The notes beneath the pieces are model-generated. The model was given only the letters and a program-made list of their open reading frames with translations. It searched no databases and was not told where the DNA came from. Positions 31,584 through 61,262 of a stretch of DNA of 64,000 nucleotides are shown piece by piece; positions within the stretch are counted from its first letter, which is position 1, and the number at the start of each line of letters is the position of its first letter. The stretch is from positions 1 to 64,000 of the forward strand of contig JAFSRX010000009.1 of NCBI GenBank assembly GCA_017445905.1, in the 5' to 3' direction. Origin of the DNA: Eubacterium sp. Its GTDB lineage: Bacteria > Bacillota > Clostridia > Oscillospirales > Acutalibacteraceae. A program made the position numbers and the translations under genes.

Positions 31584-31652
31584 AATATTCACCTTATTAA
31601 AGATTTATTATATTAAATAATAACATATTTCGGCTTTCTTTTCAACATTTTA

Positions 31653-31681
31653 TTGAATTTTGAAAGACTAATTGATATAAT
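31653..31681 (+). promoter_or_regulatory. promoter of the ROK kinase gene
   Basis: TTGAAT, 17-base spacer, TATAAT on the plus strand, about 30 bases before the start; a GGAGG Shine-Dalgarno follows. Confidence 0.65.
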
Positions 31682-31711
31682 AATATTAATTAAGTATAGC
31701 GGAGGCATGAT

Positions 31712-44870: not shown

Positions 44871-45425
44871 TTAATCCTTAATGCTAATATATTGCCAATT
44901 CTTATCTTTGTCACTTAGCAAGATTTCCATATCCTCTGGAATCGGCCATTCAACGCCGATTGTCGGATCATTATAGGCAATTCCACCTTCATCATTAGGA
45001 TGAAAGAAATCGTCAACCTTATAGCAGAATTCAGCATAATCAGAAAGAACAAGAAATCCGTGAGCAAAACCCTTAGGAATCAAAAACTGCGTTTTATTCT
45101 CAGCAGTTAAAAGTTCACCGTGCCATTTAAGATATGTTGGGCTTCCCTCTCTCATATCAACTGCAACATCAAAAACCTCACCGACTATAACACGAACAAG
45201 CTTTGTCTGAGGAAAGTTTATCTGACGGTGAAGCCCGCGCAAAACGCCTTTCGTTGAAGCGGACTGATTATCCTGAACAAACTTGATATCAAATCCTGCT
45301 TCTTTCATATCATTTTCATTATAGGTTTCCATAAAATACCCTCTGCTGTCGCCATGAACAGCAGGAGTTATCAGGCAAAGCCCTTCAATACCGCTTAAAT
45401 TTTTTTCAACTTTAATTTGAGACAT
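44871..45425 (-). CDS. rfbC: dTDP-4-dehydrorhamnose 3,5-epimerase
   Basis: 184 residues, normal length. The cupin enzyme epimerises dTDP-4-keto-6-deoxyglucose at C3 and C5 in dTDP-L-rhamnose synthesis. Seen: VHGDSRGYFMETYN, the region QSASTKGVLRGLHRQ with the catalytic His (about 53-67), and LIPKGFAHGFLVLSDYAEF (about 115-133). The last dTDP-rhamnose enzyme, RfbD, is not in the window. The pathway partners rfbA and rfbB are 5-7 kb upstream, separated from rfbC by several genes. Confidence 0.93.
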   Translation of the reverse strand: MSQIKVEKNLSGIEGLCLITPAVHGDSRGYFMETYNENDMKEAGFDIKFVQDNQSASTKGVLRGLHRQINFPQTKLVRVIVGEVFDVAVDMREGSPTYLKWHGELLTAENKTQFLIPKGFAHGFLVLSDYAEFCYKVDDFFHPNDEGGIAYNDPTIGVEWPIPEDMEILLSDKDKNWQYISIKD

Positions 45426-45456
45426 AAGAATTCCTTTAAACCAATATATATGTTAA

Positions 45457-46212
45457 TTACCCTTTCAAATATGACTCGGCAATCATCTCGTCAAAAATCT
45501 CCCTAATGTAAAAAAATCCTGTTTTTCCATAAATATAATTAGCTGCAATTAAAGCGCCATTAACAAATGCATCTCGGGAAAATGATTGATGCTCAAGAGA
45601 AATACATTCATATCCGTTTGTTGCTATTACTTCATGAACACCAACAAAGCCATCTAATCTTACTGATGAAATATTAACATTATTTCTACAAATTGATTCT
45701 CCAATTACTTTTGCTGTTTTAGTTGGTGAGCCCTTTTGAGTTCCGTGTTTTTCAATTATTTCAAATGAAAAGTCAGAAAAAATCGATGAAAGTTTTTGAA
45801 CAAAATCTATTAACATGTTGATTCCAACTGTTAAAGTAGGTGCAAAAACAATACCAATATTTGATTCTTCTGCTTTTTGCTTAATTCTATCAATTTCAGA
45901 ATCTGAAAAATTTGTTGGACAAATTATAAGATTAATTTTGTACTTACTGCATAAATCCACTAATTCGAAAGTAGTTGGATTATTAGAAAAATCAATTATG
46001 ACATCTAATTTTTCTTTGTTATCAAATTCAGAAATTTTTTTTACAATGAGATTAGGATTAACATTAATATTAGTCACTTCTGCCACTTTTTTACCCGCTG
46101 AATTACTATTTTCTCTGCAAAGAACAGTATTTAAACAATACTGTTCTGAACCTATAGTGAATTCAACAAATTTTTTCCCTGCTTTACCAAGTCCACATAA
46201 TCCAATATTCAT
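45457..46212 (-). CDS. dihydrodipicolinate reductase-like protein
   Basis: About 251 residues. The N-terminal Rossmann fold MNIGLCGLGKAGKKFVEF and the catalytic helix IIEKHGTQKGSPTKTAKVIG match DapB; the first catalytic His and the Lys are kept, while the usual E(x)HH...DAPSGTA is altered. The start at 46212 (MNIGLCG) is chosen over an in-frame ATG 48 bases upstream because the family begins there and a GGGAA lies 7 bases ahead. Its place among an ATP-grasp ligase and a DegT aminotransferase suggests a modified substrate rather than lysine synthesis. Confidence 0.72.
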   Translation of the reverse strand: MNIGLCGLGKAGKKFVEFTIGSEQYCLNTVLCRENSNSAGKKVAEVTNINVNPNLIVKKISEFDNKEKLDVIIDFSNNPTTFELVDLCSKYKINLIICPTNFSDSEIDRIKQKAEESNIGIVFAPTLTVGINMLIDFVQKLSSIFSDFSFEIIEKHGTQKGSPTKTAKVIGESICRNNVNISSVRLDGFVGVHEVIATNGYECISLEHQSFSRDAFVNGALIAANYIYGKTGFFYIREIFDEMIAESYLKG

Positions 46213-46252
46213 AATGATTCCCATAGCCTTTCTGCCCACAAATAGATTATTA

Positions 46253-46376
46253 AAATTCACACATTACGATTCCCTTGCAGGGCGGACAAGGCGTGTAATG
46301 GGAATTTAGCCATCGCTCATTGCCGCTTCACGACAAACTAAGCTGGCAAATATAATCTTAGGATAGCGTGAATTTT
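46253..46376. repeat. short element bounded by inverted repeats
   Basis: The gap between the DapB-like and ATP-grasp genes is bounded by AAATTCAC (left) and GTGAATTT (right) and has an internal CTTG/CAAG stem. It encodes nothing recognisable. It could be a small miniature element or an RNA fold. Confidence 0.3.
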
Positions 46377-46394
46377 CACACCATCTCCTTATAT

Positions 46395-47633
46395 TTACCA
46401 AATTATTCCCTTTATACCATCATCAGTGATAACTCTAATATCAAGCGTTTTCTCAATTGTTTTAATTACTTCTTCTGCCTCTGGAATACTTTCTGTTAAA
46501 AAAATAATTGGTCCATATTTTTCAGCATCATGTGTTAACCCACTAACCCTTTTACCAACATACAAATCATTAAGATGAAGCATCTTTATACTTTTCATAT
46601 TAGATAATTCTTCAATTCCGCTTATAGATTCTATTACACCTTCAGGCAAGGCAAAACAAGCATAACCGGATACCTTGTCAAGAGGTCTTTCAAGTTTTGT
46701 AATAATTCCTTCCACTATATAGTCTATCAATGCTTTATTTGAATTAAATCCAGTAACCATTGGCGTAATATTGGAAGAAATAAATGTGCCTCCACCTCTC
46801 GCTGCGATTTCAACTAAATAAGCTTTCTTTTCCTTTTCGTTATACAAATAGTCAGCATGTGTAATACCAGCATTAAGCCCAATGCCTTCGACAAGTTGTT
46901 TATTGGTTTTTAATACAGTTTTCTTAATTTCATTATCAACATAACAAGCTGATTCAAAAATACAACGCCTTGTAATAAATAAATCAATAGATTTAAAATA
47001 TGATTTATTAGCAATATCTAAATTATAGTATTCACCGTCTATCGCAAATCCGTTAACTATAAATGGTATTCCTGTAATAAACTGCTCTAAAATAACATAT
47101 CCATTTGACGAGAATTTCTGCGCTTGAGAAAACCTATCCTTTAATTCATCAATATTATCGATTTTTGAAACTCCTCGGCTACCGCTACTGTCTACAGGCT
47201 TCAGCATTAAAGGAAATCCAATTTTTTCAGCAAAAACAACTGCATCACTAACATTGTTGAATTCTTCAAATTCAGGAACAGGAACGCCTGCATCTTTTGC
47301 TGCTTTTCTCATTTCATACTTATTTGTAAATTTTAGTGAAGTATTATAACCGATTCCTCTCAATCCGAGTTTTTCACTCACATAAGCAACTGTTTGAACA
47401 GATGCATCTGTTTGATCAGTTAAGATAGCATCAATACCTTCGTGTTTTGCAGCTTTTAGAATTGATTCTTTATCACGAGTATCATAATAATATGATTTAT
47501 CAGCAAATTCAAAACCAGGATAGTTGCCTTTGATACTTACAACAATTACATAATATCCATTGTCTTTACAAATTTTTATGAAAGGAAGCTGACCATTCGC
47601 TGCGCCTAAAATCATTACTTTCTTCTTTTCCAT
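46395..47633 (-). CDS. ATP-grasp carboxylate-amine ligase
   Basis: 412 residues. N-terminal Rossmann-like domain (MILGAANGQLPFIKICKDNG), an ATP-grasp core (FPLMLKPVDSSGSRGVSKID, about 143-162; EIAARGGGTFISSN, about 275-288) and a C-terminal domain. The fold matches the CarB/PurT/BtrJ-type ligases that join a carboxylate to an amine via acyl-phosphate. It is flanked by a DegT-type aminotransferase upstream and a DapB-like reductase downstream, which points to acylation of an amino sugar, or construction of an unusual amino acid, for the polysaccharide. The substrate is unknown. Confidence 0.82.
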   Translation of the reverse strand: MEKKKVMILGAANGQLPFIKICKDNGYYVIVVSIKGNYPGFEFADKSYYYDTRDKESILKAAKHEGIDAILTDQTDASVQTVAYVSEKLGLRGIGYNTSLKFTNKYEMRKAAKDAGVPVPEFEEFNNVSDAVVFAEKIGFPLMLKPVDSSGSRGVSKIDNIDELKDRFSQAQKFSSNGYVILEQFITGIPFIVNGFAIDGEYYNLDIANKSYFKSIDLFITRRCIFESACYVDNEIKKTVLKTNKQLVEGIGLNAGITHADYLYNEKEKKAYLVEIAARGGGTFISSNITPMVTGFNSNKALIDYIVEGIITKLERPLDKVSGYACFALPEGVIESISGIEELSNMKSIKMLHLNDLYVGKRVSGLTHDAEKYGPIIFLTESIPEAEEVIKTIEKTLDIRVITDDGIKGIIW

Positions 47634-47657
47634 AATTTAATCACCAATCAAAAAATC

Positions 47658-48785
47658 CTAATTATTTGCATTAACTTCTTTTATTATTAGCTCAACATCT
47701 TCATCAGTAAGCCACATATGAAGGGGCATTGTTATAAGGTGTTGGCTTATTTCGTGTGCCTTCGGACAGGTTCCGTTAGCATATTTATACATACTGTATT
47801 CAGTATTATCCCTGTAATGAACGCCGCAGTTTATTCCTTTTGCAGAAAGCTTCTGAAGCAAATCTTCTCTATCCGGAACTGCAAGTTCAAAAAGATGATA
47901 TGAACACTCATCTGAATAATTAGCAGGAATAATCTTAATTTTATCGTTATTCTTAAAACCTTCCGTATACATCTTAACAATTTCTCTTCTTCTTGCATTT
48001 TCTTCATCAAGATACTGAAGCTGAACTAAACCAATTGCTGCCATAATTGCATTGCCGTTATACTTATAGCCAACATAGTCAACATCGTATTTCCATGCAT
48101 ATGTTCCTTTATTTGAACGGGAATATGTATCTTTATTTATACCAAGCCATGCAATCTGACGTGAGAGCTTATCGCCATCTTCATCATTCCAGCAGATCAT
48201 TCCGCTGTCGCCTGTTGCAAGGTTTTTTACTGCCTGATAAGAATACACAGTTACATCAATTCCGTGAAGTGTTCCCGGAACAACGCCATTCATTCTTGTT
48301 CCGCTCATATGAGCAGCATCAAGAATTAATCTTAAATTATGCTTTTTGCAAAGTTCGATTACTTTTTCCAGCTGACCGACTCTTCCGCCGTAGCCAACAA
48401 AAATAACCGCCTTTGTTTTCTCAGTTATCTTTTTTTCAACATCCTCGGGGTCAATACAGAGATATTCATCAACATCTGCAAAAACCGGTTTCATATTTTC
48501 ATAAAGAATTGCGTGGTTTGTTGAAACGAAAGTTATTGGAGATGAAATTATCTCATCGCCGTCTTCCCATCCGTATCTCATTTTTAAAATCTTAACCGCA
48601 AGATGAAGACCAACTGTATTTGAATTAAGATAATAAGCATATTTATGCCCCGTATATTCCTTCCACTTTTCTTCAAACTCAACAGTTTTGAATCCCATGC
48701 CCGTCCATCCCATTTCAAGGCACTCCCTAACTGCATCAAGACACTCATCAACATGAAATTTTGGTTTTAATACTTGAATTGCCAT
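47658..48785 (-). CDS. DegT/DnrJ/EryC1/StrS-type sugar aminotransferase
   Basis: 375 residues. A PLP enzyme that aminates a keto-sugar nucleotide. The PLP lysine is in VYSYQAVKNLATGDSGMI (about 181-198); the N-terminal YYLNSNTVGLHLAVKILK and the Asp of LRLILDAAHMSGTRM are typical. The likely donor is dTDP-4-keto-6-deoxyglucose from rfbB, giving a 4-amino or 3-amino sugar. The following ATP-grasp ligase could then acylate that amine. Confidence 0.88.
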   Translation of the reverse strand: MAIQVLKPKFHVDECLDAVRECLEMGWTGMGFKTVEFEEKWKEYTGHKYAYYLNSNTVGLHLAVKILKMRYGWEDGDEIISSPITFVSTNHAILYENMKPVFADVDEYLCIDPEDVEKKITEKTKAVIFVGYGGRVGQLEKVIELCKKHNLRLILDAAHMSGTRMNGVVPGTLHGIDVTVYSYQAVKNLATGDSGMICWNDEDGDKLSRQIAWLGINKDTYSRSNKGTYAWKYDVDYVGYKYNGNAIMAAIGLVQLQYLDEENARRREIVKMYTEGFKNNDKIKIIPANYSDECSYHLFELAVPDREDLLQKLSAKGINCGVHYRDNTEYSMYKYANGTCPKAHEISQHLITMPLHMWLTDEDVELIIKEVNANN

Positions 48786-48803
48786 TATCTTATCCTCCTG
48801 AAA

Positions 48804-49766
48804 TTATAGTTTATGAATTGATTTATGAATTTTACAAAACAGATTTGGGGAAATATAGAAAAATGCAAACTTGATCTTGTTTTTTATAGGTAAATCGACA
48901 TTTTTTCGTACTTCTTTATATCTGGTTTTATATTCATTATAAACGCTTTTCATTTCCGAACTAAAATCGGATTCATCAGCATACATATCATAATAAAGTG
49001 TTATTGGTAAATGAAGCGTTCCTGATAAAAAAATCTTCCAAAGATTTGGATATTTTTTTTCATAAAACTCTTTATAAACATCATAAAGCTTCATCCCTGT
49101 TAACTGAACAGATCTGAATTTGCCGCGAACAGCACTTTCTTCAGACTGAACATAATGATACATTGCTCTTTTATCAAAAAAGCATTTTTCGCTTTGTTCA
49201 ATTGCCTGATGAACAAAAAGGCTATCCTCTCCTCTGAATATTGTTTCATCAAACATTAAGCCAGAAATAGAATTCTTTGAATAAATTCTGTTACAAGCAA
49301 AAGGTATTCCTTGCAAAACTGCTCTGTGTGAGTTTTCAACATCAAAGAGTCCATAAACACTACCAGAAAAATGCTTTTCGTCTTCATGATCACTATAAGT
49401 TACATAATAATCAAAACTAACAATGTCACAGCCGTGTTTGTTCATAAGTTTCAAGCAATATTCATAGCAGTCCTCATCAATATAATCATCACTATCAGGA
49501 AAATGGAAGTAATCACCCTTTGCATTTCTTATACCTGCGTTTCTTGCTTTTGAAACTCCACTATTTTGCTGATGAATAACGGTTATACGGCTGTCTATTC
49601 TTGCATATTCATCACAAACTTCAGCACTGCCGTCTGTAGAGCCGTCGTCAATCAGTATTATATCAAGCTCTTTATATGTTTGATTAATAATTGAATCAAT
49701 GCAATTATATAAATATTTTCCCGTGTTGTATACGGGTATAATAACTGAAATAATTGGTTTATTCAT
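48804..49766 (-). CDS. family 2 glycosyltransferase
   Basis: 320 residues. The GT-A fold is clear: PIISVIIPVYNTGKYLYNCI (about 3-22), DDGSTDGSAEVCDEYA (about 41-56), and the metal-binding FHFPDSDDYID (about 87-97). It transfers a sugar from a nucleotide donor onto the growing repeat unit at the cytoplasmic membrane face. It follows another transferase by two bases in the locus. Confidence 0.9.
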   Translation of the reverse strand: MNKPIISVIIPVYNTGKYLYNCIDSIINQTYKELDIILIDDGSTDGSAEVCDEYARIDSRITVIHQQNSGVSKARNAGIRNAKGDYFHFPDSDDYIDEDCYEYCLKLMNKHGCDIVSFDYYVTYSDHEDEKHFSGSVYGLFDVENSHRAVLQGIPFACNRIYSKNSISGLMFDETIFRGEDSLFVHQAIEQSEKCFFDKRAMYHYVQSEESAVRGKFRSVQLTGMKLYDVYKEFYEKKYPNLWKIFLSGTLHLPITLYYDMYADESDFSSEMKSVYNEYKTRYKEVRKNVDLPIKNKIKFAFFYISPNLFCKIHKSIHKL

Positions 49767-49767
49767 T

Positions 49768-50763
49768 TTAATCTCCGGTTAAAAACTCTTCAAAAAACAA
49801 TATTCGATTATATGGATTATACATATCTCTCTTAACAAAAGAACAATAATCTATAGGTTTTCTTATAAAATCAAAATCTATATCTTCAAAATTAGAAAAT
49901 ACACTCATGTTAGAAGCATCATAATAATCTTGATAAACAATGCTAATGTTATTTGTCAACAGTTTTCGCTTATAAACCTGTGCTTCACTGGTTCTCAATG
50001 TCGCAGAGCTACTTCCCCCTTGTATTAACTCTAAAACACATTTGCTATTTTGAACATTTTTTAAATTTTCAAGATAAGAAATAGGTCTATTGTAAATTAA
50101 CCCTTCTTCACTAAGTTTTTTATCATTATCAACTCCGCAAACAATAAACTTGCAATTAAAACCCTGATTTTTAAGGGATAAAAAGGTGTTGTGAATCTCG
50201 TCAAGCCTGTCTTTAGCGAAGCCCAAAAAATAAACATCGTTTTCAAATTCAGAAGGCGTTGTAATATCAATCAATGCACCATAGTATTTACCTTTATAGT
50301 GGCATATATCATATTTTTCTGCTTCGCCTTTATCGTATGTTACGATATAATCACAGTGCGATTTAACTTTGTTAATATTCCAATTCTTCTTAGATATCAA
50401 ATCAGCACAGTAAATAACAACCTTATTCTCAGGATTAAGCTTTTTAATATAATAAAAAAGTTCAGGAGCATCATTGATGTATTTTCCGCCTAAGAATACA
50501 AAACAAATAGGTTTATTGTTATCAAAACTATTATTGCATATTTTTTTAAACCAAAGTTTTTTAAATGGAACTCTGATTCGTCTATTTAGTTTATATGAAT
50601 AGTGAAGAAAAAACAGTTTTTGAATCAGATTATTAGAAACAAAGGCGTTTTTTCTCACTTCAATTTGCGGATACTTTTCAAGCGGTTTGAAACTTGGTTC
50701 TAAATAATCTTCATTGACATTATAAAAAACATAGTTATAGTTTGTATCGTTCAAATCTTTCAT
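49768..50763 (-). CDS. putative glycosyltransferase-like protein of the polysaccharide locus
   Basis: 331 residues. No clear signature motif. The alternating alpha/beta pattern with KPICFVFLGGKYI (about 85-97) and the later RPISYLENLKNVQNSKCVLE and SSSATLRTSEAQVYKRKLLT segments resembles GT-B-type C-terminal domains of LPS-type transferases. The start codon overlaps the rfbB stop (TAATG). I call the family with moderate doubt; an accessory enzyme is possible. Confidence 0.55.
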   Translation of the reverse strand: MKDLNDTNYNYVFYNVNEDYLEPSFKPLEKYPQIEVRKNAFVSNNLIQKLFFLHYSYKLNRRIRVPFKKLWFKKICNNSFDNNKPICFVFLGGKYINDAPELFYYIKKLNPENKVVIYCADLISKKNWNINKVKSHCDYIVTYDKGEAEKYDICHYKGKYYGALIDITTPSEFENDVYFLGFAKDRLDEIHNTFLSLKNQGFNCKFIVCGVDNDKKLSEEGLIYNRPISYLENLKNVQNSKCVLELIQGGSSSATLRTSEAQVYKRKLLTNNISIVYQDYYDASNMSVFSNFEDIDFDFIRKPIDYCSFVKRDMYNPYNRILFFEEFLTGD

Positions 50764-51785
50764 TACGATCTATCCCCATACATCTTTTCATAATAATCCT
50801 GATATTCGCCGGAGATGATGGTTTCCCACCAATCACGATTTTCAAGATACCACTTAATTGTTTTCTTTATTCCATCTTCAAACTTTGTTTCAGGCAGCCA
50901 TCCGAGTTCACTGTGAATCTTCGTCGGGTCGATTGCATAACGCATATCGTGGCCCTTTCTGTCCGCAACAAAGGTTATAAGACTCTCGGGCTTACCAAGT
51001 TCCTTGCAGATGAGCTTAACAATATCAATGTTTTTCATCTCATTGTGACCGCCGATGTTGTAAACCTCGCCGACTCTTCCGTTATGAATAACAAGATCAA
51101 TTGCCTTGCAGTGGTCTTCAACATAGAGCCAGTCGCGAACATTCAAGCCTTCGCCGTAAACAGGAAGAGGCTTATCATTAAGCGCATTTGCAATCATAAG
51201 CGGAATGAGCTTTTCGGGAAAATGATAGGGTCCGTAGTTATTTGAACAACGGCTGATAGTTACGGGCAGACCGAAGGTTCTGTGATACGCAAGAACAAGA
51301 AGGTCTGCGCCAGCCTTTGATGATGAATAGGGCGAGCTTGTATGAATCGGAGTTTCCTCGGTAAAGAACAAATCGGGTCTGTCAAGAGGAAGGTCGCCAT
51401 AAACCTCATCAGTTGAAACCTGATGATAGCGCTTTATTCCATATTTTCTGCAGGCGTCCATAAGAACCTGAGTTCCGAGAATATTCGTTTTAAGAAAGAT
51501 TCCCGGATCCTCGATAGAACGGTCAACATGGCTTTCAGCAGCAAAATTGACAACGACATCCGGATGCTCCTCTTCAAAGAGCTTTTCAACAGCTTCCCTG
51601 TCGCAGATATCTGCTTTAACAAATCTGAAATTTTCATTATTCATAATCGGAGCAAGCGTTGAAAGATTGCCCGCATATGTAAGTTTATCAAGGCAAATAA
51701 TGCGATAATCGGGATGCTTTTTAAGCATATAGAATATGAAATTCGAGCCGATAAATCCTGCTCCGCCTGTTACAATTATAGTCAT
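50763..51785 (-). CDS. rfbB: dTDP-glucose 4,6-dehydratase
   Basis: 340 residues of the extended SDR type. It converts dTDP-glucose to dTDP-4-keto-6-deoxyglucose. Seen: the NAD motif TGGAGFIGSNFIFYML (about 6-21), the catalytic YSSSKAG (about 159-165, Tyr-Lys) with Ser/Thr at STDEVYGDL (about 127-135), and HVDRSIEDPG. It starts at the last base of the rfbA stop (TGATGA overlap). The keto-sugar feeds rfbC and probably the DegT aminotransferase. A decayed second copy of its 3' end is at 44801-44869. Confidence 0.95.
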   Translation of the reverse strand: MTIIVTGGAGFIGSNFIFYMLKKHPDYRIICLDKLTYAGNLSTLAPIMNNENFRFVKADICDREAVEKLFEEEHPDVVVNFAAESHVDRSIEDPGIFLKTNILGTQVLMDACRKYGIKRYHQVSTDEVYGDLPLDRPDLFFTEETPIHTSSPYSSSKAGADLLVLAYHRTFGLPVTISRCSNNYGPYHFPEKLIPLMIANALNDKPLPVYGEGLNVRDWLYVEDHCKAIDLVIHNGRVGEVYNIGGHNEMKNIDIVKLICKELGKPESLITFVADRKGHDMRYAIDPTKIHSELGWLPETKFEDGIKKTIKWYLENRDWWETIISGEYQDYYEKMYGDRS

Positions 51786-52666
51786 CAGATTTCTCCCTTT
51801 GCAACTTTTTTAAGATACTTTCCGTAGTCGCTCTTTCCGTACTTTTTAGCCGATTCCATAAGCTTTTCATTATCAATCATACCCATCCTGAATGCTATTT
51901 CTTCAGGCGCAGATATACGGATTCCCTGCTGTTTCTGAATCGTTTGAACAAAGTCTGCTGCATCTATAAGGCTTTCCATAGTTCCTGTATCAAGCCATGC
52001 AAAGCCTCTTCCAAGAAGACGAACATCAAGTTCATCTGATTCAAGATAAAGCTTATTCAAGTCTGTTATTTCAAGCTCTCCCCTATCAGAAGGTTTGAGT
52101 GATTTTGCATATTTAACGCAACGGTTGTCATAGAAATATAATCCTGTAACAGCCCACGGTGATTTAGGGTGCTTTGGCTTTTCTTCCAGGGAAAGGACCT
52201 TATGTTTTTCGTCAAACTCAACAATTCCGAATCGCTCAGGGTCATCAACATGATATGCGAAAACAGTTGCTCTTCCGTTTTCCTCAGCATTCTTCTTTGC
52301 ATTTTCAAGAATTTCTGCAAAGCCTGCGCCATAGAAGATATTATCACCGAGAATCATTGCACAACAATCATCACCGATAAATTCATCGCCGATAATGAAC
52401 GCCTGAGCAAGTCCATCGGGTGACGGCTGCTCTTTATATGTAAGCTTAATACCATACTGAGAACCATCGCCGAGCAGCCTTTTGAAATTCGGCAAATCGG
52501 CAGGAGTTGAAATGATTAAAATATCATCTATCCCTGCAAGCATAAGAGTGCTTAAAGGATAATAAATCATTGGTTTATCATAAATCGGCAACAACTGCTT
52601 TGAAGTTACCATTGTAAGCGGATAAAGCCTTGTTCCGCTTCCGCCTGCTAAGATTATACCTTTCAT
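51785..52666 (-). CDS. rfbA: glucose-1-phosphate thymidylyltransferase
   Basis: About 293 residues. It makes dTDP-glucose from dTTP and glucose-1-phosphate. The signature [17 protein letters not shown] (about 2-18), the acceptor region [18 protein letters not shown] and the Mg site ILGDNIFYG are present, and the C-terminal [13 protein letters not shown] is typical. The ATG at 52666 is preferred over the in-frame ATG six bases upstream, because AGGAG is 7 bases before it but only 1 base from the other. Followed by rfbB with overlapping codons. Confidence 0.95.
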
Positions 52667-52676
52667 GTTCATTCTC

Positions 52677-53582
52677 CTATAACAATTTTAAAATCTTATC
52701 AATTCCCTCTTCAAAAGATACTTGGGGTTTAAATCCTGTATCTTCAGTAAGTTTTGAAATATCTGCACACAAAAACATAACCTGATCGGGATAATAATCA
52801 ATTGCACCGAAATTGAGTTTTGCATTTTTATTTCCGACTGTGTCATAAATAATCTGCGCATATTCCTTCATCGGTTTTGGCTTACCGCAGCCAATAATAT
52901 ATGTTTGATCAGGCTTGCCCTTTTCGGCAATAAGTTTTAACCCTCTTGCAATATCTTCATTAAAGATATAATCCCAATACTGCTCGCAAGGAGTTAAATT
53001 GCAAACATTTCCTTTTTTGCAATTGTTAATGATATGCATAACAAATGAATTTTCGTTATCTCCAATTCCGTAAGTTGAAAGAACTCTACACCAGTTAAAC
53101 TTAATACCAAGCTCATTACAGAGCTTACGACACTCGTTTCTTGCTTTAAGTTTTGCTTTTCCATATGCACTTTCGGGGTTTTCTTTGAGTTCCGGAGAAA
53201 GCTTAATTCCATTTTTAACCTTACCGTATTCAGCCTGACTGCCTACTCCGACAAAGCATTTGCAGCCAGCTTTTTTTGCAAGTCTGACCGCTTCAAAAGA
53301 AATATTTATATTATTATTCTGCAACTCTTCATCAAGCCTTGATGCTCCTCTTGTGCCTGTCCATCCTAGATGAAAAAAGTAATCAAATTTCTCATTGATA
53401 TTCAGAGAATCAAGAGCATTCAAGTCGCAAAAGACAACATCAACATTTTCTTTTTTGCTTAATTCTTCTGCCTTTGAGGATTTTCTTGCAATTACCAAAA
53501 CCCTATATTCATTTTTAATTAATTCGTTTACCAATGCACTTCCGATTACTCCGGTTGCACCTGTTACAATGGCTTTTTTCAT
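52677..53582 (-). CDS. NAD-dependent epimerase/dehydratase, likely CDP-sugar reductase
   Basis: 301 residues of the extended SDR family: [16 protein letters not shown] (about 7-22) for NAD(P) and [13 protein letters not shown] (about 137-149) with the Tyr-Lys pair. No close match to RfbD is seen. In the CDP-3,6-dideoxyhexose context it could be the ketoreductase (RfbJ/paratose synthase type) or the YerF-type reductase for the acetylated branched sugar. That assignment is inference from the neighbouring TPP enzyme. Confidence 0.72.
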
Positions 53583-53588
53583 ATATTT

Positions 53589-54692
53589 TTAAATATTTAG
53601 CTTTCTAAAAATAAACTGTTTTAAACGGTTTCCAAAATAATATGAAATACTACTAGAAACAATAATCAAAACAATGAGAACTATTATTTTAACAGCCTCA
53701 TTTAAATTGATACCCAATAATTTAAGTAAGTTATCAATGTTATAAAACCAATACATATGGTTCATAAACAATACAAGTGTGCTTTTACCGAGACTACGCA
53801 CAAATGAATTATCAAGTTTTTCATAAAAAAGTGATTTCTTTGAAAGAGTTATTGTAACAGCTATTAACATTGATAATAAAGCAGTAGTCATACCTATTTC
53901 TAAATCTTCAATTTCTTGTAAAAAAATCATATATAAAAAAGTGTACAAATATAACAGAATTTCAATAATTGTTATAAATAATCGAGAAAAATTATGCTTA
54001 TTTATAACAACAGATAATTCATAAATAAACATTCCTATAGAAATCATTGCAATTGCTCGTAAAAAACCTGTATTTAATATACCTATATACTTATTTGGAA
54101 CATTGAAAGTTCCAAAATTGGTCATTACTAAACCCATTGAAACCAAAAAAACAAGTATCGAATAGTACTTGGTATAAATGCTATAATACTTCAGAGCAAT
54201 AGGGTACAATATCATTAAGGCAAAAAACATAGAAGATAAAAACCATAAGATACCAGTAAACGAATAGCCCCCTAATCCATAGTTTAAAAGCATGAATAAG
54301 TCCATTGGCAACGCAGTCAACGAAACTATACTCGTCTTTACAGAAGAAGCACTTATAGTCTTAATCACAAAAGCAATGATTGTAGATACTGCATAAAATG
54401 GAAAAACAGACAAAAATTTTCTAATTATTGATTTTCTTGAAAAAGCAAACAATTCACTATTTGAAACATCGTATTTGTTTTCAGAAATCGATTTTCCTAA
54501 AAAAGCACCTGTTATAGTAAAAAAGAATTCAACCCCTAAATATCCACCTCTAAAAGTCAATAAACCAAAATAACCAAATTGCTCACAGTAATGTAAACCG
54601 ATAATTAAACAACAAAATATAAATCTAAGTATTTCAATATTGCCATTTCTTAATGTCTGTCTGTTAGTAGTTAGTATTTTCTCATTTTGCAT
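53589..54692 (-). CDS. acyltransferase family 3 membrane protein
   Basis: About 367 residues with about ten transmembrane helices. An early NIEILRFIFCCLIIGLHYCE (about 18-37) carries the catalytic His and Arg pattern of the acyltransferase 3 family; GGYLGVEFFFTITGAFLGKS is also typical. It would O-acetylate a cell-surface sugar from a cytoplasmic or lipid-linked acyl donor. The ATG at 54692 is chosen over the in-frame TTG at 54704. It lies between the TPP enzyme and the SDR gene and so may modify the same sugar. Confidence 0.82.
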   Translation of the reverse strand: MQNEKILTTNRQTLRNGNIEILRFIFCCLIIGLHYCEQFGYFGLLTFRGGYLGVEFFFTITGAFLGKSISENKYDVSNSELFAFSRKSIIRKFLSVFPFYAVSTIIAFVIKTISASSVKTSIVSLTALPMDLFMLLNYGLGGYSFTGILWFLSSMFFALMILYPIALKYYSIYTKYYSILVFLVSMGLVMTNFGTFNVPNKYIGILNTGFLRAIAMISIGMFIYELSVVINKHNFSRLFITIIEILLYLYTFLYMIFLQEIEDLEIGMTTALLSMLIAVTITLSKKSLFYEKLDNSFVRSLGKSTLVLFMNHMYWFYNIDNLLKLLGINLNEAVKIIVLIVLIIVSSSISYYFGNRLKQFIFRKLNI

Positions 54693-54717
54693 TATTTGTG
54701 TCAACCTTTTTTAATTA

Positions 54718-56544
54718 TTATGTTATTGGGTTAATAAACATATTTTCTTTTAATTCTTCTCTTGGCAAAAAAGGTGCTAAATCCTCAAGTGGAGGACTAA
54801 CAATTGTTCCGTCTTCAAGTCTTCTTGCACTGCTCTTTGGTTCCCAAACCTGCTCAGTATCGGTAAATATTTCGCAAAATGCAAAACCTTTATGTTCGAG
54901 AACTTCATTAACAACAGAATTCATTTCTTCATTGTTGTGAGCTGAATAGTAAGGAAATCCAAAAGCGCTTGCAATCTTTTCAAATTCAGGAAATGAAAGG
55001 TCGTTTGATTCAGGACCGATTCCAACTTTAGAATGATCTGCAAAAATATTATTTTGAGTTATTCTGATTGAATGATAACCCTGATTATTAATTAAAAACA
55101 GTTTTATTGGCAAATGATTCGTTATTATCGTTTGCAACTCCTGTAAATTCATCATAATTGAGCCATCGCCTTCAAGGCATATCGTATCTTTGTTCCCTGC
55201 TGCAACACATAATCCAATTGCAGCCGGCAAACCATATCCCATTGAAGCTATTGCGTTATTTATAATAAATCGAGTTTTATTTTTAATAACATAATTCTGA
55301 TGCCCAACAACGCAACATGCTCCGTTTGAAACAGCTGTATAACTCTCTTCAGGAAGAGAATTACTTAACTGATTTATAAAAGCATAAACATTAACTCTTT
55401 CGTTGCTATTCCAATGGCGTTCAAGAGTTACAGGATATTTCTTTTTCCAGTTTTGGCAAATATCAAGCCATTCCTGATTATTAAATACTTTTTTTTCAAC
55501 GATTCTATTAATTGTAGATAAGAAATCTTTTGCATCAGCCCATATTGGCATATCTATATGAAGAGTATGCTTCATCATTTCAGATTTATCGATATCAACC
55601 ATTATAACTTTTGCTTCTCTTGCCCAAGTTTTATAATCATATCCAACTTGACGAATAGATAGTCTCGTTCCTATTGCTATAACAAGATCAGAATTCTGAA
55701 CGGCAAAATTACCTGCACGATCTCCCATATTGCCACCTCTTCCGACATATAAAGGATTATCGCTTTCAATTAAATCAATGCTATTCCAATAGGTTACTAC
55801 AGGTATATTAAGCTTTTTAAGAGCTTTTCTGAATTCTTCATATCCTCCCGATATTCTGATTCCGCCACCTGCATAAATAACAGGTCTTTTTGAATTTCTT
55901 ATACATTCAATAACTGTGTTTATTGTTTCGTTTGAAACTGATGGTGGAATTTCTAAATCATTTTCACTTGGTGAAAATCCCTTTAAAGCATCTGTTTCAA
56001 TAATAGCTGCCTGTATATCAACAGGGACATCAAGCCACACTGGTCCAGGCCTTCCGTTTGTTGCGTAATACCATGCTTTTTCAAGTACATATCTTATGCT
56101 TTGGGGATCTTCAAGCATTTTTGAATATTTGGTCATATGCTTAACAGCGAATTCTATATCATATTCCTGATCGCCGAGCGAACGCAAATCAATCTCTGAA
56201 TTTAGACTCTTTGCATATCTTGATGTTGTAACATATTTAACCTGACCTGATACAATGAACATAGGAATACTGTCAAGCCATCCGCCGCAAACACCTGTCA
56301 ATGCATTAATGCCACCGGGTCCAGAAGTAACACAGAGTAGTGCAATTCTATTCTCCAATCTTGCATATGCTTCAGCTGCAATAGCACTTGCCTGTTCGTG
56401 ATGATTGTAGGTTACCTTTAAGCCATTTTTGTGTCCAAATGCATCATTTAGATGCATTGCGCCTCCACCAACAACACTAAACGCATCAGAAACACCATGA
56501 TTAACAAAAAAATCTGCAATATAATCCGCAACTCTCTGCTTCAT
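54718..56544 (-). CDS. thiamine diphosphate-dependent enzyme, YerE-like candidate
   Basis: 608 residues in the acetolactate-synthase/pyruvate-decarboxylase superfamily. Domains: N-terminal Pyr (SVVGGGAMHLNDAF, Glu in NHHEQASAIAAEAY), middle FAD-type domain (about 200-335), and a C-terminal PP domain with the TPP motif EGDGSIMMNLQELQTI and NNQGYHSIRITQN. It sits directly after rfbH. In Yersinia YerE, which belongs to this fold family, adds an acetyl group from pyruvate to a CDP-4-keto-3,6-dideoxy sugar to form yersiniose. By context this gene is a YerE-like candidate. An ordinary acetolactate synthase is the alternative but no ilv genes are near. Confidence 0.75.
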   Translation of the reverse strand: MKQRVADYIADFFVNHGVSDAFSVVGGGAMHLNDAFGHKNGLKVTYNHHEQASAIAAEAYARLENRIALLCVTSGPGGINALTGVCGGWLDSIPMFIVSGQVKYVTTSRYAKSLNSEIDLRSLGDQEYDIEFAVKHMTKYSKMLEDPQSIRYVLEKAWYYATNGRPGPVWLDVPVDIQAAIIETDALKGFSPSENDLEIPPSVSNETINTVIECIRNSKRPVIYAGGGIRISGGYEEFRKALKKLNIPVVTYWNSIDLIESDNPLYVGRGGNMGDRAGNFAVQNSDLVIAIGTRLSIRQVGYDYKTWAREAKVIMVDIDKSEMMKHTLHIDMPIWADAKDFLSTINRIVEKKVFNNQEWLDICQNWKKKYPVTLERHWNSNERVNVYAFINQLSNSLPEESYTAVSNGACCVVGHQNYVIKNKTRFIINNAIASMGYGLPAAIGLCVAAGNKDTICLEGDGSIMMNLQELQTIITNHLPIKLFLINNQGYHSIRITQNNIFADHSKVGIGPESNDLSFPEFEKIASAFGFPYYSAHNNEEMNSVVNEVLEHKGFAFCEIFTDTEQVWEPKSSARRLEDGTIVSPPLEDLAPFLPREELKENMFINPIT

Positions 56545-56561
56545 TAAGAAAAGCTCCTTGT

Positions 56562-57899
56562 TTAAATATTTGTAGCTTCAATAATGGTTTTCGCCATATA
56601 ATCTATCATTTCATCGGTCATTCCGGGGTATACACCAATCCAGAAAGTATCCTTCATAATTCTGTCTGTTACCGAAAGGTCTCTTGCAACTCTGAACCCT
56701 TCTCCGCTTACTCTCATTTCATCGAAAACAGGCTGTTTAACAACATTACCTGCAAAAAGCATTCTTGTTTGAACACCTTTATCTTCACAATACTGAACAA
56801 TAGTATTCTTTGAAACACCTTCTTTACAAGTTATTAAGAACCCGAACCAAGAAGGATTGCTGTTTTTGCAAGCTTCAGGGAGAATGAGTTTATCTTCAAC
56901 TTCTTTCAGTGCTTCTTTAAGTCTGTTAAAATTATGTCTTCTTCTTTCAACAAATGAAGGGAATTTTTCAAGCTGAGCACAGCCTATCGCAGCCTGCATT
57001 TCGGTTGCTTTTAAGTTAAATCCGAAATGAGAATAAACATATTTATGGTCATATCCCAGCGGAAGCTCTCCATATTGTTTATCAAATCTGTGTCCGCAAA
57101 GATTATCACAACCAGACGGACAAACGCAGTCCCTTCCCCAGTCACGAAGTGAATGAGCAATTTTGTTGAGAAGCGGATCATTTGTATAAACAGCTCCGCC
57201 TTCGCCCATTGTCATATGATGAGGAGGATAGAAACTTGAAGTTCCGATATCACCAATTGTACCTGTTAATTTAACCTCGCCGTCAATTTCATATTCACTG
57301 CCAAGAGCATCGCAGTTATCTTCAATAAGCCAGAGATTATGTTTTTCACAGAAATCCTTAACTGCCTTTAAATCAAAAGGATTTCCAAGTGTGTGCGCAA
57401 TCATAACAGCCTTTGTTTTATCAGACAATGCAGCTTCAAGCTGATTAACATCAATATTATATTGAGGAATTGTTAAATCAACAAAAACCGGAACAGCACC
57501 AAATTGAATAATCGGGGCAATAGTTGTTGGAAAACCGGCTGCAACAGTAATAACCTCGTCGCCTCTCTTAACTCGCCTATCGCCAAGCAGGTGAGAAGTC
57601 AGTGTCCAGAATGCAAGAAGATTTGCGGATGAACCTGAATTAACAAGAGAAACATATTTAACTCCGAGATACTCGCTGAATTTCTTTTCAAACTCATCGC
57701 AGTATCTTCCCGCTGTAAGCCAAAATTCTAATGCAGAATCAACTAAGTTCTTCATTTCTTTATCATCAAATACTCTTCTGGCATATGGGATTCTGTCACC
57801 CTCTTTATACTCAGGAATTTGCTTGAACTTTTTATAGTATTCGCTAACTAATGAGAGTATCTCTTCTTTTGCCTGATTTTCTGTTTTATTCTCAAACAT
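56562..57899 (-). CDS. rfbH: CDP-6-deoxy-D-xylo-4-hexulose-3-dehydrase (E1)
   Basis: 445 residues. A PMP-dependent [2Fe-2S] enzyme that removes the 3-hydroxyl of CDP-4-keto-6-deoxyglucose. Decisive points: the usual PLP lysine is His in SFYPPHHMTMGEGGAV (the E1 hallmark), and the iron-sulfur ligand set RDCVCPSGCDNLCGHRFDKQ (about 255-280) is present. The following segment GELPLGYDHKYVYSHFGFNL is characteristic. It needs a reductase partner (E3, RfbI/AscD type), which is not in the window. It lies next to rfbG and the TPP enzyme. Confidence 0.95.
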   Translation of the reverse strand: MFENKTENQAKEEILSLVSEYYKKFKQIPEYKEGDRIPYARRVFDDKEMKNLVDSALEFWLTAGRYCDEFEKKFSEYLGVKYVSLVNSGSSANLLAFWTLTSHLLGDRRVKRGDEVITVAAGFPTTIAPIIQFGAVPVFVDLTIPQYNIDVNQLEAALSDKTKAVMIAHTLGNPFDLKAVKDFCEKHNLWLIEDNCDALGSEYEIDGEVKLTGTIGDIGTSSFYPPHHMTMGEGGAVYTNDPLLNKIAHSLRDWGRDCVCPSGCDNLCGHRFDKQYGELPLGYDHKYVYSHFGFNLKATEMQAAIGCAQLEKFPSFVERRRHNFNRLKEALKEVEDKLILPEACKNSNPSWFGFLITCKEGVSKNTIVQYCEDKGVQTRMLFAGNVVKQPVFDEMRVSGEGFRVARDLSVTDRIMKDTFWIGVYPGMTDEMIDYMAKTIIEATNI

Positions 57900-57902
57900 T
57901 TT

Positions 57903-58961
57903 TTAGTCCTCCGTGTTAAAAAACTCATTAATCTGCTTGTCCATTATATCTGAAACCGAACCATCGCTGAAATAAACCTTTGTCCATTCAACAATTTTCT
58001 CAATTGCCTGTTCAACACTCCAAACAGGCTTCCAGCCGAAGGTTTCTTTAACCTTTGTTGTATCAAGTCGTAAAAAGCTTGCTTCGTGGGGCGCGTTCTT
58101 CTGACTTATATCCTTCCATGAAGCGCTCTCGCCCCAGCAATTACAAAACAGCGTTACTAAATTTCCCGTTGTTCTGCAGTCGGTTTCGTTTGGACCAACA
58201 TTATAATAGCCCTCAAGACTTCTGTTTTTATACTGTCCCTCTGCTATCATTAGATAGATTTTCAAAGGTTCTAAAACATGCTGATATGGTCTTGTTGAAT
58301 AAGGATTTCTTACAATTATTTCTTCACTCTTTTCAACTGCTCGTATACAATCCGGAATAATTCGATCGTTTGCAAAATCTCCGCCACCGATAACATTTCC
58401 TGCTCGTGCTGTTGACACAGCAACATCCATATTACAGAAAAATGATTTTTTATATGAATGTGTTACAAGCTCTGAACAAGATTTACTGTTTGAATATGGA
58501 TCATATCCGTCAAGCGGCATATCTTCTTTAAATGCAATATCCAAGTCATCATTTTCATAAACCTTATCGGTTGTTACATTCAGAAAAGATTTAACACAGG
58601 GATTTAGCCTAACACATTCACAAATATTAACAGTTCCAATAACATTAGTTTCATATGTATAAACAGGCATTTTATAGCTATCGCGAACAATCGGCTGAGC
58701 AGCAAGATGGAAAACTATTTCAGGCTGTTCCTTTTCAAATACCTTGTTTAGCTTTTCCAAATCTCTTATATCAGCAATATAAGATTTCATTTTCTTTTCA
58801 ATGCCCGAAAGCTCGAAAACACTTGGATTTGTTGGTGGTTCAAGCGAATAGCCAACAACCTGAGCCCCTGCGTTAATCAAAATCTTACAAAGCCAAGTAC
58901 CTTTAAAGCCAGTATGACCAGTTACTAAAACTTTTTTATTATTGTAGAACGATAAATTCAT
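57903..58961 (-). CDS. rfbG: CDP-glucose 4,6-dehydratase
   Basis: About 352 residues, SDR family. It makes CDP-4-keto-6-deoxyglucose from CDP-glucose. Seen: KVLVTGHTGFKGTWLCKIL (about 12-30), the catalytic YSNSKSCSEL (Tyr-Lys), and PYQHVLEPLKIYL, typical of RfbG. The ATG at 58961 is preferred because it is one base after the rfbF stop and begins the family-typical N-terminus; the longer ORF would run 50 bases into rfbF. It is coupled to rfbF upstream and rfbH downstream. Confidence 0.93.
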   Translation of the reverse strand: MNLSFYNNKKVLVTGHTGFKGTWLCKILINAGAQVVGYSLEPPTNPSVFELSGIEKKMKSYIADIRDLEKLNKVFEKEQPEIVFHLAAQPIVRDSYKMPVYTYETNVIGTVNICECVRLNPCVKSFLNVTTDKVYENDDLDIAFKEDMPLDGYDPYSNSKSCSELVTHSYKKSFFCNMDVAVSTARAGNVIGGGDFANDRIIPDCIRAVEKSEEIIVRNPYSTRPYQHVLEPLKIYLMIAEGQYKNRSLEGYYNVGPNETDCRTTGNLVTLFCNCWGESASWKDISQKNAPHEASFLRLDTTKVKETFGWKPVWSVEQAIEKIVEWTKVYFSDGSVSDIMDKQINEFFNTED

Positions 58962-58962
58962 A

Positions 58963-59739
58963 TTATTCCCAAACCTTCCATGGAGCATTTCCGCTCTCCC
59001 ACATTTCTTCAAGCTGTATTTTTTCTCTTAATGTATCCATTGGCTTCCAGAAACCGTTATGTATATATGCATCAAGCTCACCCATCTTTGCTACTGTTTC
59101 AAGAGGAGTCTTTTCAAAAACAGTTGAATCTCCTTCAATAAAATCAAATATCTTTGGCTCTAAAACCATAAAGCCTGCGTTGATTCTGCTTGAGTCCATA
59201 TCGCTTTTTTCTCTGAAAGAAGAAATCGTTAAATCGTCTTCAATGCCAAGGCAACCAAATCGCTGACCAACCGAAACAGCAGTCATAGTTGCAATATGGC
59301 CTTGTTTTTTATGGAAATCAACAAGCTTATTAATATCAACATCAGCAACTCCATCGCCATAGGTCAGCATAAAGGCTTCGTCGCCAATGTAATCTTTAAT
59401 TCTTTTAACTCTGCCACCCGTCATTGTATTGAGTCCTGTATCAACGATTGTTACTTTCCAAGGCTCTGCGTGCTCTGAATGAACAGTCATTTTATTTGCA
59501 GCAGTAAAATCAAATGTTACATCCGAGCAATGAAGAAAATAATTGGCAAAATACTCTTTTATTGCATACTGCTTATAACCTGCACATATAATAAACTCAT
59601 TATATCCATAGTGAGAATAGGTTTTCATAATATGCCAAAGGATTGGATATCCTCCTAAGTCAATCATCGGCTTAGGTTTATTCTGACTTTCTTCGCTTAT
59701 TCGAGTTCCGTATCCACCTGCTAAAATAACAACCTTCAT
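58963..59739 (-). CDS. rfbF: glucose-1-phosphate cytidylyltransferase
   Basis: 258 residues, the normal size. It makes CDP-glucose from CTP and glucose-1-phosphate. The N-terminal VVILAGGYGTRISEESQNKP (about 3-22) and the later FMLTYGDGVADVDI (Mg site) are diagnostic, as is the C-terminal MDTLREKIQLEEMWESG. First committed gene of the CDP-3,6-dideoxyhexose module, immediately downstream of the flippase. Confidence 0.95.
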   Translation of the reverse strand: MKVVILAGGYGTRISEESQNKPKPMIDLGGYPILWHIMKTYSHYGYNEFIICAGYKQYAIKEYFANYFLHCSDVTFDFTAANKMTVHSEHAEPWKVTIVDTGLNTMTGGRVKRIKDYIGDEAFMLTYGDGVADVDINKLVDFHKKQGHIATMTAVSVGQRFGCLGIEDDLTISSFREKSDMDSSRINAGFMVLEPKIFDFIEGDSTVFEKTPLETVAKMGELDAYIHNGFWKPMDTLREKIQLEEMWESGNAPWKVWE

Positions 59740-59741
59740 AA

Positions 59742-61262
59742 TCAGTTTTCCTGCTTTCCTCTTATTCTTAATTTACTGCCAATTACTGTTTTAACTAATT
59801 CACATCCAAGATGATATGATTTTATATCCGTTAGAGAAGCTACTGCAAAATACAATAATGTAATAATAATTGTATATGGAATTACAGCAATAATTATTTT
59901 TATATATGATGACATTTCAACATGAATTAACTTGTTAACAAATATAATTACAACAAATAATCCGATATCAACTGCCCACTTTTTATACGTTATAAGCGCT
60001 GAGCTCTTAATAAGATGTTTTCTGTTATAAAGAATCATATCATTACTTCTGTAAAGCAATGCAGCAATTGTTCCAATTAATACGCCGTATATACCTATTA
60101 AATTAACGCAAACAAGGGTAACTGTTATATTGATAATCATTTCTGCAACAGATCTCCATTGAGTTTGCTTAAAATGGCCTGCAAAGCTGGCTGTTCTGCC
60201 CGACATTTCTCTTCCTGAAACCATTACTTTAATTGAAACAAACAAAATAGGAAGCCATTTATCAATATAATTAATATCCGCGCCTGCAGTATAAAGTTTT
60301 AAAAACGGAAGAATAAAAATATATGCTGTGCAGTAAAACGCAAAGGAAAGCGCCATCATATATGTTTCCCATACCTCAAAATACTTGCAGAATTTTTTGT
60401 GTTCTGAATTATACAGCTGACCCATTTTATAAATAAAACCATTATTTACATTTTGAAGCAGCGTTGCAATCATATCAAACAGCATATTATAAATTGCATA
60501 CACACTTGCAACTTTATATCCGCAGAAAATTGAAAGAATAATTGTGTCGGTATTATTAAAAACAAGTCCTGTAACCTGATGAATAATGACATTTTTACTC
60601 TGAGATATTGCTTCTTTATTAGGCTTAGCTTTAAGATTTACCCATGAATAGTGCTTTTTAAAATAGAATGAATATATTATCATCTGAAAAATGTTCAGAA
60701 TAAACTGGGCAAATGTGATTTCAACAACGCTCAAACCAAGTGTTATTAAAACTATTTTTGATATGCTGACAAGCAAATGGATAAAAGTTGTTATATTTGT
60801 TATAACATACTGCCTGCCGTCAGCCATCATTATCTGCTTCATTTTTCCCTGGAAAAAGAAGTTAATGACATTGCCAAGACCAATAAACAGAATAACTAAA
60901 ACAACAGTTGTTCTTGGAATCTCAGATTTAACTGCTAAAGGATAAACAATTGCAAAGATGGCTATTGCAACAAGATAATAACAACCAACTCTTTTATAGA
61001 AATAGTGAGTAGCGGATATTATTTCTGAAACACTCTGCCGATCATTTCTTGCAATCGGTCCGTAAAGTGCTTGAATTGTTGCTGTACCTATTCCAGCCTC
61101 AAGAAGTGCAATATATGTAAAAATATTGTTAACTGAAGTCAGCATTCCGTTAACTTCAGAACCATATGAAAGTATAAACATTCTCGGAAGGACAATTCCG
61201 ATTGCGATAGTTATCGCCTGTCCGAGTATTCCGAAAAATATGTTTTTAAAGCTTTTGTTCAT
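59742..61262 (-). CDS. Wzx-type polysaccharide flippase
   Basis: 506 residues with about 12-14 transmembrane helices of the MATE/Wzx superfamily (beginning IFFGILGQAITIAIGIVLP). It moves lipid-linked oligosaccharide units across the membrane. It sits between a glycosyltransferase and the CDP-sugar genes, as is normal in such loci. No Wzy polymerase is evident within the window. Confidence 0.88.
   Translation of the reverse strand: MNKSFKNIFFGILGQAITIAIGIVLPRMFILSYGSEVNGMLTSVNNIFTYIALLEAGIGTATIQALYGPIARNDRQSVSEIISATHYFYKRVGCYYLVAIAIFAIVYPLAVKSEIPRTTVVLVILFIGLGNVINFFFQGKMKQIMMADGRQYVITNITTFIHLLVSISKIVLITLGLSVVEITFAQFILNIFQMIIYSFYFKKHYSWVNLKAKPNKEAISQSKNVIIHQVTGLVFNNTDTIILSIFCGYKVASVYAIYNMLFDMIATLLQNVNNGFIYKMGQLYNSEHKKFCKYFEVWETYMMALSFAFYCTAYIFILPFLKLYTAGADINYIDKWLPILFVSIKVMVSGREMSGRTASFAGHFKQTQWRSVAEMIINITVTLVCVNLIGIYGVLIGTIAALLYRSNDMILYNRKHLIKSSALITYKKWAVDIGLFVVIIFVNKLIHVEMSSYIKIIIAVIPYTIIITLLYFAVASLTDIKSYHLGCELVKTVIGSKLRIRGKQEN

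Follow-up and report, generated by a model that had tools for sequence, protein, structure and literature searches.

What sugar is made where genes for CDP-3,6-dideoxyhexose synthesis adjoin a thiamine pyrophosphate (TPP) enzyme in a clostridial genome? The window analysed here, a stretch of 64,000 nucleotides from a Eubacterium sp. genome (contig JAFSRX010000009.1, positions 1 to 64,000), holds such a run: rfbF, rfbG and rfbH, a TPP enzyme, an acyltransferase and a short-chain dehydrogenase/reductase (SDR). The known enzyme YerE uses pyruvate and CDP-3,6-dideoxy-4-keto-D-glucose as substrates (PMC12247030), and most accounts of C4-branched deoxy sugars concern Gram-negative lipopolysaccharide, glycolipids of mycobacteria and antibiotics of actinomycetes (PMC12247030, PMC4753412). 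A first-pass annotation of the window had raised the possibility of a branched-chain CDP-3,6-dideoxy sugar, and its reading is supported by the grouping of the TPP enzyme with the solved structure 8rph and by the co-occurrence of RfbH, the TPP enzyme and the SDR across the genus. We conclude that the probable product of the cluster is a C4-branched 3,6-dideoxyhexose, activated with CDP and destined for a surface polysaccharide, and that pyruvate is the most likely donor.

Results

A tight gene run with a CDP-3,6-dideoxyhexose core

The six genes form a tight minus-strand run at 52677-59739. Their coordinates and order hold as first annotated, with the acyltransferase (PF01757) and SDR (PF01370) after the TPP enzyme; the six genes end there, but the polysaccharide cluster around them goes far past both ends, spanning ~43.4 to 75 kb of the contig.

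58963..59739, minus strand: rfbF (ddhA), glucose-1-phosphate cytidylyltransferase (TIGR02623 402 bits, cut-off 300)
57903..58961, minus strand: rfbG (ddhB), CDP-glucose 4,6-dehydratase (TIGR02622 434 bits, cut-off 278)
56562..57899, minus strand: rfbH (ddhC, E1), pyridoxamine phosphate/[2Fe-2S] CDP-4-keto-6-deoxyglucose 3-dehydrase (NF011936 720 bits, cut-off 423; 3bcx 517 bits)
54718..56544, minus strand: YerE-like thiamine diphosphate (ThDP) lyase, the TPP enzyme, whose proposed role is to attach an acyl unit at C4 of CDP-4-keto-3,6-dideoxyglucose (8rph 425 bits; tree)
53589..54704, minus strand: membrane acyltransferase (Acyl_transf_3), proposed accessory O-acylation (PF01757 75.7 bits)
52677..53582, minus strand: extended SDR, which we propose to reduce the branch ketone in a YerF-like role (PF01370 119.8 bits)

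Intergenic gaps across the run measure 1-17 bases, provided that rfbG begins at 58961. The rfbG open reading frame (ORF) is open from a TTG at 59012, the TIGR02622 match starts only at residue 22 of that longer ORF, and the ATG at 58961 is the more likely start. Promoter-like and terminator-like sites were no more numerous than in shuffled sequence.

RfbF, RfbG and RfbH all score above their NCBIfam equivalog cut-offs, which upholds the identities first given to them. Because the matches are at equivalog level, we assign to these proteins the steps to CDP-4-keto-3,6-dideoxyglucose: RfbF would form CDP-glucose, RfbG would convert it to CDP-4-keto-6-deoxyglucose, and RfbH would remove O-3 by E1 chemistry. 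The exchange of lysine for histidine and the iron-sulfur cysteines of E1, both reported in the first-pass annotation, are indeed kept. Aligned with E1 (3bcx, 517 bits) over 431 of its 445 residues, RfbH has the active-site histidine in place of the pyridoxal phosphate lysine and cysteines at E1 positions 193, 251, 253 and 261 (counted on the 3bcx alignment), with four additional residues between the first and second of these cysteines. We take these four positions to be the [2Fe-2S] ligands of E1.

For comparison we used the loci of the best 80 of at least 593 relatives of the TPP enzyme, among 597 stretches, chosen by likeness to the query, with matches counted from 60 bits upwards. Across 34 RfbH sequences (one from the window, the others from the 33 relatives' loci, out of 41 with rfbH, where the match was long enough), the histidine and the first three cysteines are invariant, and the fourth cysteine is present in 33.

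The TPP enzyme groups with YerE-like lyases

The TPP enzyme has three TPP domains and carries the catalytic glutamate (Glu50) and the ThDP/Mg motif (GDG at 459-461, NN at 486-487). Its best solved relative is 8rph at 425 bits, followed by the best acetolactate synthase (ALS) at 232 bits. The 8rph record is titled just 'thiamine pyrophosphate-binding protein'. Because its chain has CDG at the ThDP site and all five JanthE residues named in PMC12188165 match its letters with an offset of one, 8rph is taken to be JanthE, an enzyme described as YerE-like (PMC12247030).

We built a careful tree of 38 rows, in which the window enzyme, 8rph and 26 others were set against ten controls: the genome's own IlvB, four ALS of the genus, and E. 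coli IlvI, IlvB, Gcl, PoxB and Oxc. A branch with support of 100/99 separated the 28 rows that include the window enzyme and 8rph from all ten controls, 8rph being a long row of the kind that may be misplaced, and the genome's own IlvB fell with the other ALS. A fast tree of 93 rows placed the window enzyme deep within a mostly Bacillota clade. The phylogeny against YerE and IlvB that had been suggested for this enzyme thus separates it from IlvB, and the outcome named as refuting, a place among the acetolactate synthases, did not occur; the YerE side was represented by 8rph/JanthE, against which the family assignment was made, and not by Yersinia YerE.

ALS models do reach 333 bits on the enzyme (TIGR00118), which might suggest a biosynthetic or catabolic ALS that merely sits in the cluster. 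That score is far under the ALS cut-off of 538, and the tree sets the enzyme apart; on these two grounds we discarded an ALS identity, which we regard as highly improbable. The gene is moreover followed by the acyltransferase and not by an ilvN-like gene, the genome carries a separate IlvB, and a C-terminal extension is common to the enzyme and 8rph, whereas the two ALS alignments shown end before it.

A YerE-like ThDP lyase is therefore the supported assignment. Members of this family include YpYerE, JanthE, ErwE, MMAR_2332 and MygE (PMC12247030). The activity typical of the family is the transfer of an acyl group to an isolated ketone, with flavin as a bound cofactor. The window enzyme shares with such lyases the clade of 8rph/JanthE, the ThDP motif, the C-terminal extension and the linkage to CDP-3,6-dideoxyhexose genes. 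It differs from JanthE in its canonical GDG (CDG in JanthE), in sequence (36% identity) and in its Clostridia-like host. At two active-site positions named in PMC12188165, where JanthE has Val and Pro, the window enzyme carries Asp125 and Arg298 respectively, letters that are each found in 80 of 91 family rows. Because of its family membership and gene linkage, we propose that the enzyme carries out a C4 carboligation: it would decarboxylate an alpha-keto acid, most likely pyruvate, and transfer the two-carbon unit to the C4 ketone, yielding a tertiary alcohol with an acetyl branch.

RfbH, the TPP enzyme and the SDR occur together

We searched the genus (80 genomes, counting that of the window) for the TPP enzyme (E 1e-60), RfbH (E 1e-100) and the SDR (E 1e-40). 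TPP enzyme matches were found in 21 genomes. Sixteen were counted as YerE-like (E 1e-91 or better, 43-100% identity; the match in G043 is a contig-end fragment) and the other five as ALS (29-31% identity): those of G050, G002 and G051 fall with ALS in the tree, as does a second, weak match in G019, and those of G006 and G025 are not in the tree. RfbH was present in 15 of the 80 genomes, all within the 16 with a YerE-like enzyme (Fisher p 2e-15, kinship ignored). The sixteenth genome, G054, has its TPP gene on a contig of 3.4 kb. The SDR was found in 19 genomes, comprising all 16 with the TPP enzyme and 3 of the 64 others (G067, G049 and G010; p 4e-14, kinship ignored). Three genus-mates (L020, L021 and L022) have runs of rfbF, rfbG, rfbH, the TPP gene, the SDR gene and a family 2 glycosyltransferase (GT2) gene. 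This co-occurrence within the genus supports a single pathway.

In a class-wide sample, the TPP enzyme was detected at E 1e-120 in 18 of 243 genomes (again counting the window's) and 11 of 160 genera; it is scattered, not rare. Plasmid records yielded no YerE-like enzyme match at E 1e-80.

A proposed reductase and an accessory acyltransferase

We propose that the SDR has a YerF-like role and would reduce the branch ketone to a 1-hydroxyethyl group. Among the best 80 relatives' loci, 46 have an SDR match; in 45 it is on the strand of the TPP gene, and in 32 of these 45 it starts less than 200 bases from that gene. An SDR of this superfamily adjoining rfbFGH could also be a CDP-4-keto-3,6-dideoxyglucose 4-reductase of the RfbS/RfbJ type (neither sequence was in the comparison), making paratose or abequose beside or in place of a branched sugar; Clostridium butyricum is predicted to form paratose via RfbF, RfbG, RfbH and RfbS (PMC13317340). 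We consider this unlikely, as the SDR accompanies the TPP enzyme in every one of the 16 genus genomes that have it, SDR-like matches (several of them weak) occur in 16 of the 80 relatives' loci in which no rfb gene was seen, and a C4 reductase would compete for the very ketone that the TPP enzyme requires.

The acyltransferase may acylate the sugar before the repeat unit is flipped and polymerized. BLAST at a threshold of 60 bits matched it in none of the 80 relatives' loci, and we did not retain it as a core part of the pathway, although PF01757-type genes do lie by the SDR elsewhere: a different PF01757 protein adjoins the SDR in genus-mate L017, and L124 has a similar piece.

The electron source of RfbH

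E3 enzymes of the DdhD/RfbI type have Fer2, FAD_binding_6 and NAD domains. E1 is reduced by E3, a flavin/iron-sulfur enzyme (PMC8987622). A search with the FAD_binding_6 model (PF00970) at E 0.1 gave no match in this genome but succeeded in nine control genomes, E. coli among them; the controls included no true DdhD. At E 0.001, none of the 15 RfbH-bearing genus genomes had a match. PF00970 was present in 6 of the 80 genus genomes, with no significant anticorrelation with RfbH (p 0.59), since most of the genus is without it. Fer2 matched the genome twice, in frames of 737 and 589 amino acids that adjoin NuoF-like ORFs, and an E3 motif scan of 90 loci gave none in the window and a single match, in L038, that we judged spurious.

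The RfbH-bearing genomes thus seem to manage without a dedicated E3. A parallel is SpnQ of spinosyn biosynthesis, which acts on a dTDP sugar of an antibiotic pathway and is likewise an E1-kind [2Fe-2S] 3-dehydrase without E3, a likeness seen here only in that E3 went undetected. With no E3 found, and because ferredoxin or flavodoxin pairs take the place of E3 for SpnQ (PMC8987622), a general carrier may serve here too, and RfbH would probably be reduced by cellular ferredoxin or flavodoxin. An FrhB-like iron-sulfur protein encoded from 62257 upwards was considered as a stand-in for E3 and, by inference, set aside, as it had no match in nine genus loci (L017-L025, some of them short).

Candidate donor genes in relatives' loci

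The donor keto acid would set the length of the branch. ErwE and MMAR_2332 prefer longer, hydroxylated 2-keto acids (PMC12247030), and with such a donor the same pathway would yield a long-branched sugar resembling erwiniose or caryophyllose. We looked for genes whose products could form keto acids near the relatives' TPP genes, with reference members assigned by Pfam. The 80 loci, of which 53 are from Bacillota, include 27 that fall short of a 5 kb flank on one or both sides. In the 53 flank-complete loci, 17 had an HMGL-like aldolase, 5 an HpcH/HpaI-like gene, 4 a NeuB-like gene and 1 both of the latter, giving 27 with a donor gene, and 26 had none of those sought. Genes for haloacid dehalogenase (HAD) phosphatases accompanied 11 of the 27 loci with a donor gene and none of the 26 without (p 3e-4, kinship ignored), a result favoured by the HAD references having been taken from donor-gene loci. 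Within the genus, three of the 16 genomes place an HMGL-like aldolase gene next to the TPP gene: G014 (L023), G013 (L024) and G045 (L123, L128).

No HMGL-, HpcH- or NeuB-like donor gene and no such HAD gene was found at E 1e-5 in the whole window or in L016. Donor genes were likewise not detected in the other genus loci searched, several of which are shortened by contig ends. This absence is consistent with pyruvate as the donor, and a yersiniose-like sugar, which would be a 4-C-(1-hydroxyethyl)-3,6-dideoxyhexose, is then the best reading of the product. The genome does contain an unlinked HMGL-like protein, a possible source of a hydroxy-keto acid, but it adjoins a SecA-like ORF (recognized by eye), apparently in a housekeeping setting. 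We give the long-branched product a minor share of the probability, larger than that of a paratose or abequose pathway.

Several observations weigh against the preferred reading, which joins a CDP-linked sugar, a branch derived from pyruvate and an RfbH that works without a dedicated E3. Close relatives of the window enzyme (for example, L026, L028, L031 and L082) have an HMGL-like aldolase nearby, as do 26 of the best 80 loci overall, and the unlinked HMGL-like protein of this genome (325 amino acids, PF00682; G000:C42 near 31380-32099, L112, beside the SecA-like ORF) could supply another donor. Just 41 of the 80 relatives' loci have rfbH, some of the absences being due to contig ends, and 47 have any of rfbF, rfbG and rfbH, which implies that the TPP family is not bound to CDP sugars alone. 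The similarity of the SDR to nucleotide-sugar SDRs is generic, its best solved relative scoring 61 bits. A divergent reductase could have been missed by the Pfam models, and several of the 15 RfbH-bearing genomes are incomplete (68-99%).

Other features of the family came to light in these loci. NeuB-like or HpcH/HpaI-like genes, as assigned by Pfam, lie near TPP genes outside the window's group (L091:6824-7936, L102:6903-7991 and L093:2687-3772; L086:6549-7361 and L103:4991-5806), as if providing different 2-keto acids for the branch. A YerE-like clade from Hungatella, Enterocloster and oral Lachnospiraceae (L048, L057, L060-L063, L067, L068 and L095) has one or two SDR-like matches nearby and no rfbF, rfbG or rfbH of 60 bits in reach. 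Active-site letters were tried as donor markers and rejected: of the 39 rows that lack donor genes 24 have Met273, and of the 26 that have an HMGL-like gene 12 have Val, but the classes overlap.

The surrounding cluster and the cell envelope

The run continues downstream into genes for a separate sugar and is preceded by a flippase-like gene.

51785..52672, minus strand: rmlA, dTDP-glucose pyrophosphorylase, same run, separate sugar (TIGR01207 478 bits)
50763..51785, minus strand: rmlB, dTDP-glucose 4,6-dehydratase, same run, separate sugar (TIGR01181 502 bits)
59742..61262, minus strand: Wzx-like flippase of 506 amino acids, directly upstream of rfbF (weak PF01943 match of 21 bits, below the cut-off of 28.2; cluster position)

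One flank of the cluster holds rmlA, rmlB and rmlC, a DegT aminotransferase and a GT2 glycosyltransferase. The other, up to ~75 kb, holds the weakly Wzx-like protein, a GT2, a PS-pyruvyl-transferase/FrhB fusion, PGA_cap, a TupA-like ATP-grasp protein, EpsG (Wzy-like) and a Bac_transf initiating transferase. The fusion is an ORF of 784 amino acids at contig positions 62257-64612 (L016:2258-4612) that joins a polysaccharide pyruvyl transferase to an FrhB-like [4Fe-4S] domain; the window ends at 64000, and its ORF list shows 534 of these amino acids. Although rmlA, rmlB and rmlC are present at 44871-52672, dTDP-rhamnose is doubtful because the RmlD-domain matches in the genome are weak, one of them being rmlB itself. 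The DegT aminotransferase, together with DapB-like and ATP-grasp proteins in the cluster, may make an acylated amino sugar. Elsewhere in the window, two adjacent very large ORFs at 13472-18799 and 18840-23459 (1775 and 1539 amino acids) look alike by eye and have signal-like starts.

The host, a relative of gut and rumen Clostridia, is probably Gram-positive, as the first-pass annotation had assumed: the genome has no LpxC match at E 0.01 and four LytR-CpsA-Psr matches, and the nearest kin of the TPP enzyme are mostly Bacillota.

Discussion

The gene set of the yersiniose pathway in Yersinia pseudotuberculosis is, as we take it, ddhD, ddhA-C, yerE and yerF. The window has homologues of DdhA, DdhB and DdhC, a YerE-like enzyme and an SDR that we propose as the counterpart of YerF, the sequences of YerE and YerF themselves being outside the comparison. 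It differs in that no DdhD-type reductase was found, an acyltransferase is interposed, the genes belong to a Wzx/Wzy-type cluster, and the genome has no LpxC match.

Such sugars are best known from Gram-negative O-antigens, as the first-pass annotation put it; there are also precedents in mycobacteria, which have branched sugars of this kind (PMC12247030), and in Clostridium (PMC13317340). The predicted paratose island for C. butyricum flagella likewise places rfbF, rfbG and rfbH in a Gram-positive, but with an RfbS-type reductase and flagellin glycosylation (PMC13317340) where the window has a YerE-like enzyme and a polysaccharide cluster. The YerE-like family and Gram-positive precedents are thus already known, and similar gene sets are present in many relatives of the host. 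More than 200 YerE-like enzymes were surveyed in silico in 2024 by Krug et al. (as cited in PMC12247030), and that survey may include Bacillota members. Our literature search, covering titles and abstract openings and mostly without subscription papers, found none on YerE-like branched sugars in Bacillota polysaccharides. The undetected E3 and the donor-gene patterns of the relatives are the more novel parts, and go beyond the first-pass annotation.

These patterns suggest a wider idea, which we put forward tentatively and at slightly less than even chances. YerE-like enzymes may be a plug-in C-branching module across Bacillota, acting on a CDP-4-keto-3,6-dideoxy sugar made without E3, RfbH taking its electrons from a general ferredoxin, with the branch set by interchangeable donor genes: none for pyruvate, an HMGL-like or HpcH/HpaI-like aldolase, or NeuB-like phosphoenolpyruvate condensation, often with a HAD phosphatase. 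If true, Gram-positive surfaces would carry an unrecognized range of short- and long-branched sugars, and donor-gene patterns would predict branch length from sequence. An RfbH that works without E3 would allow a direct test of the electron carrier for 3-deoxygenation in an anaerobe, and the clusters would be a source of carboligases for tertiary alcohols. If gut and rumen Clostridia display such sugars, these would be among the structures that host immunity and phages encounter there.

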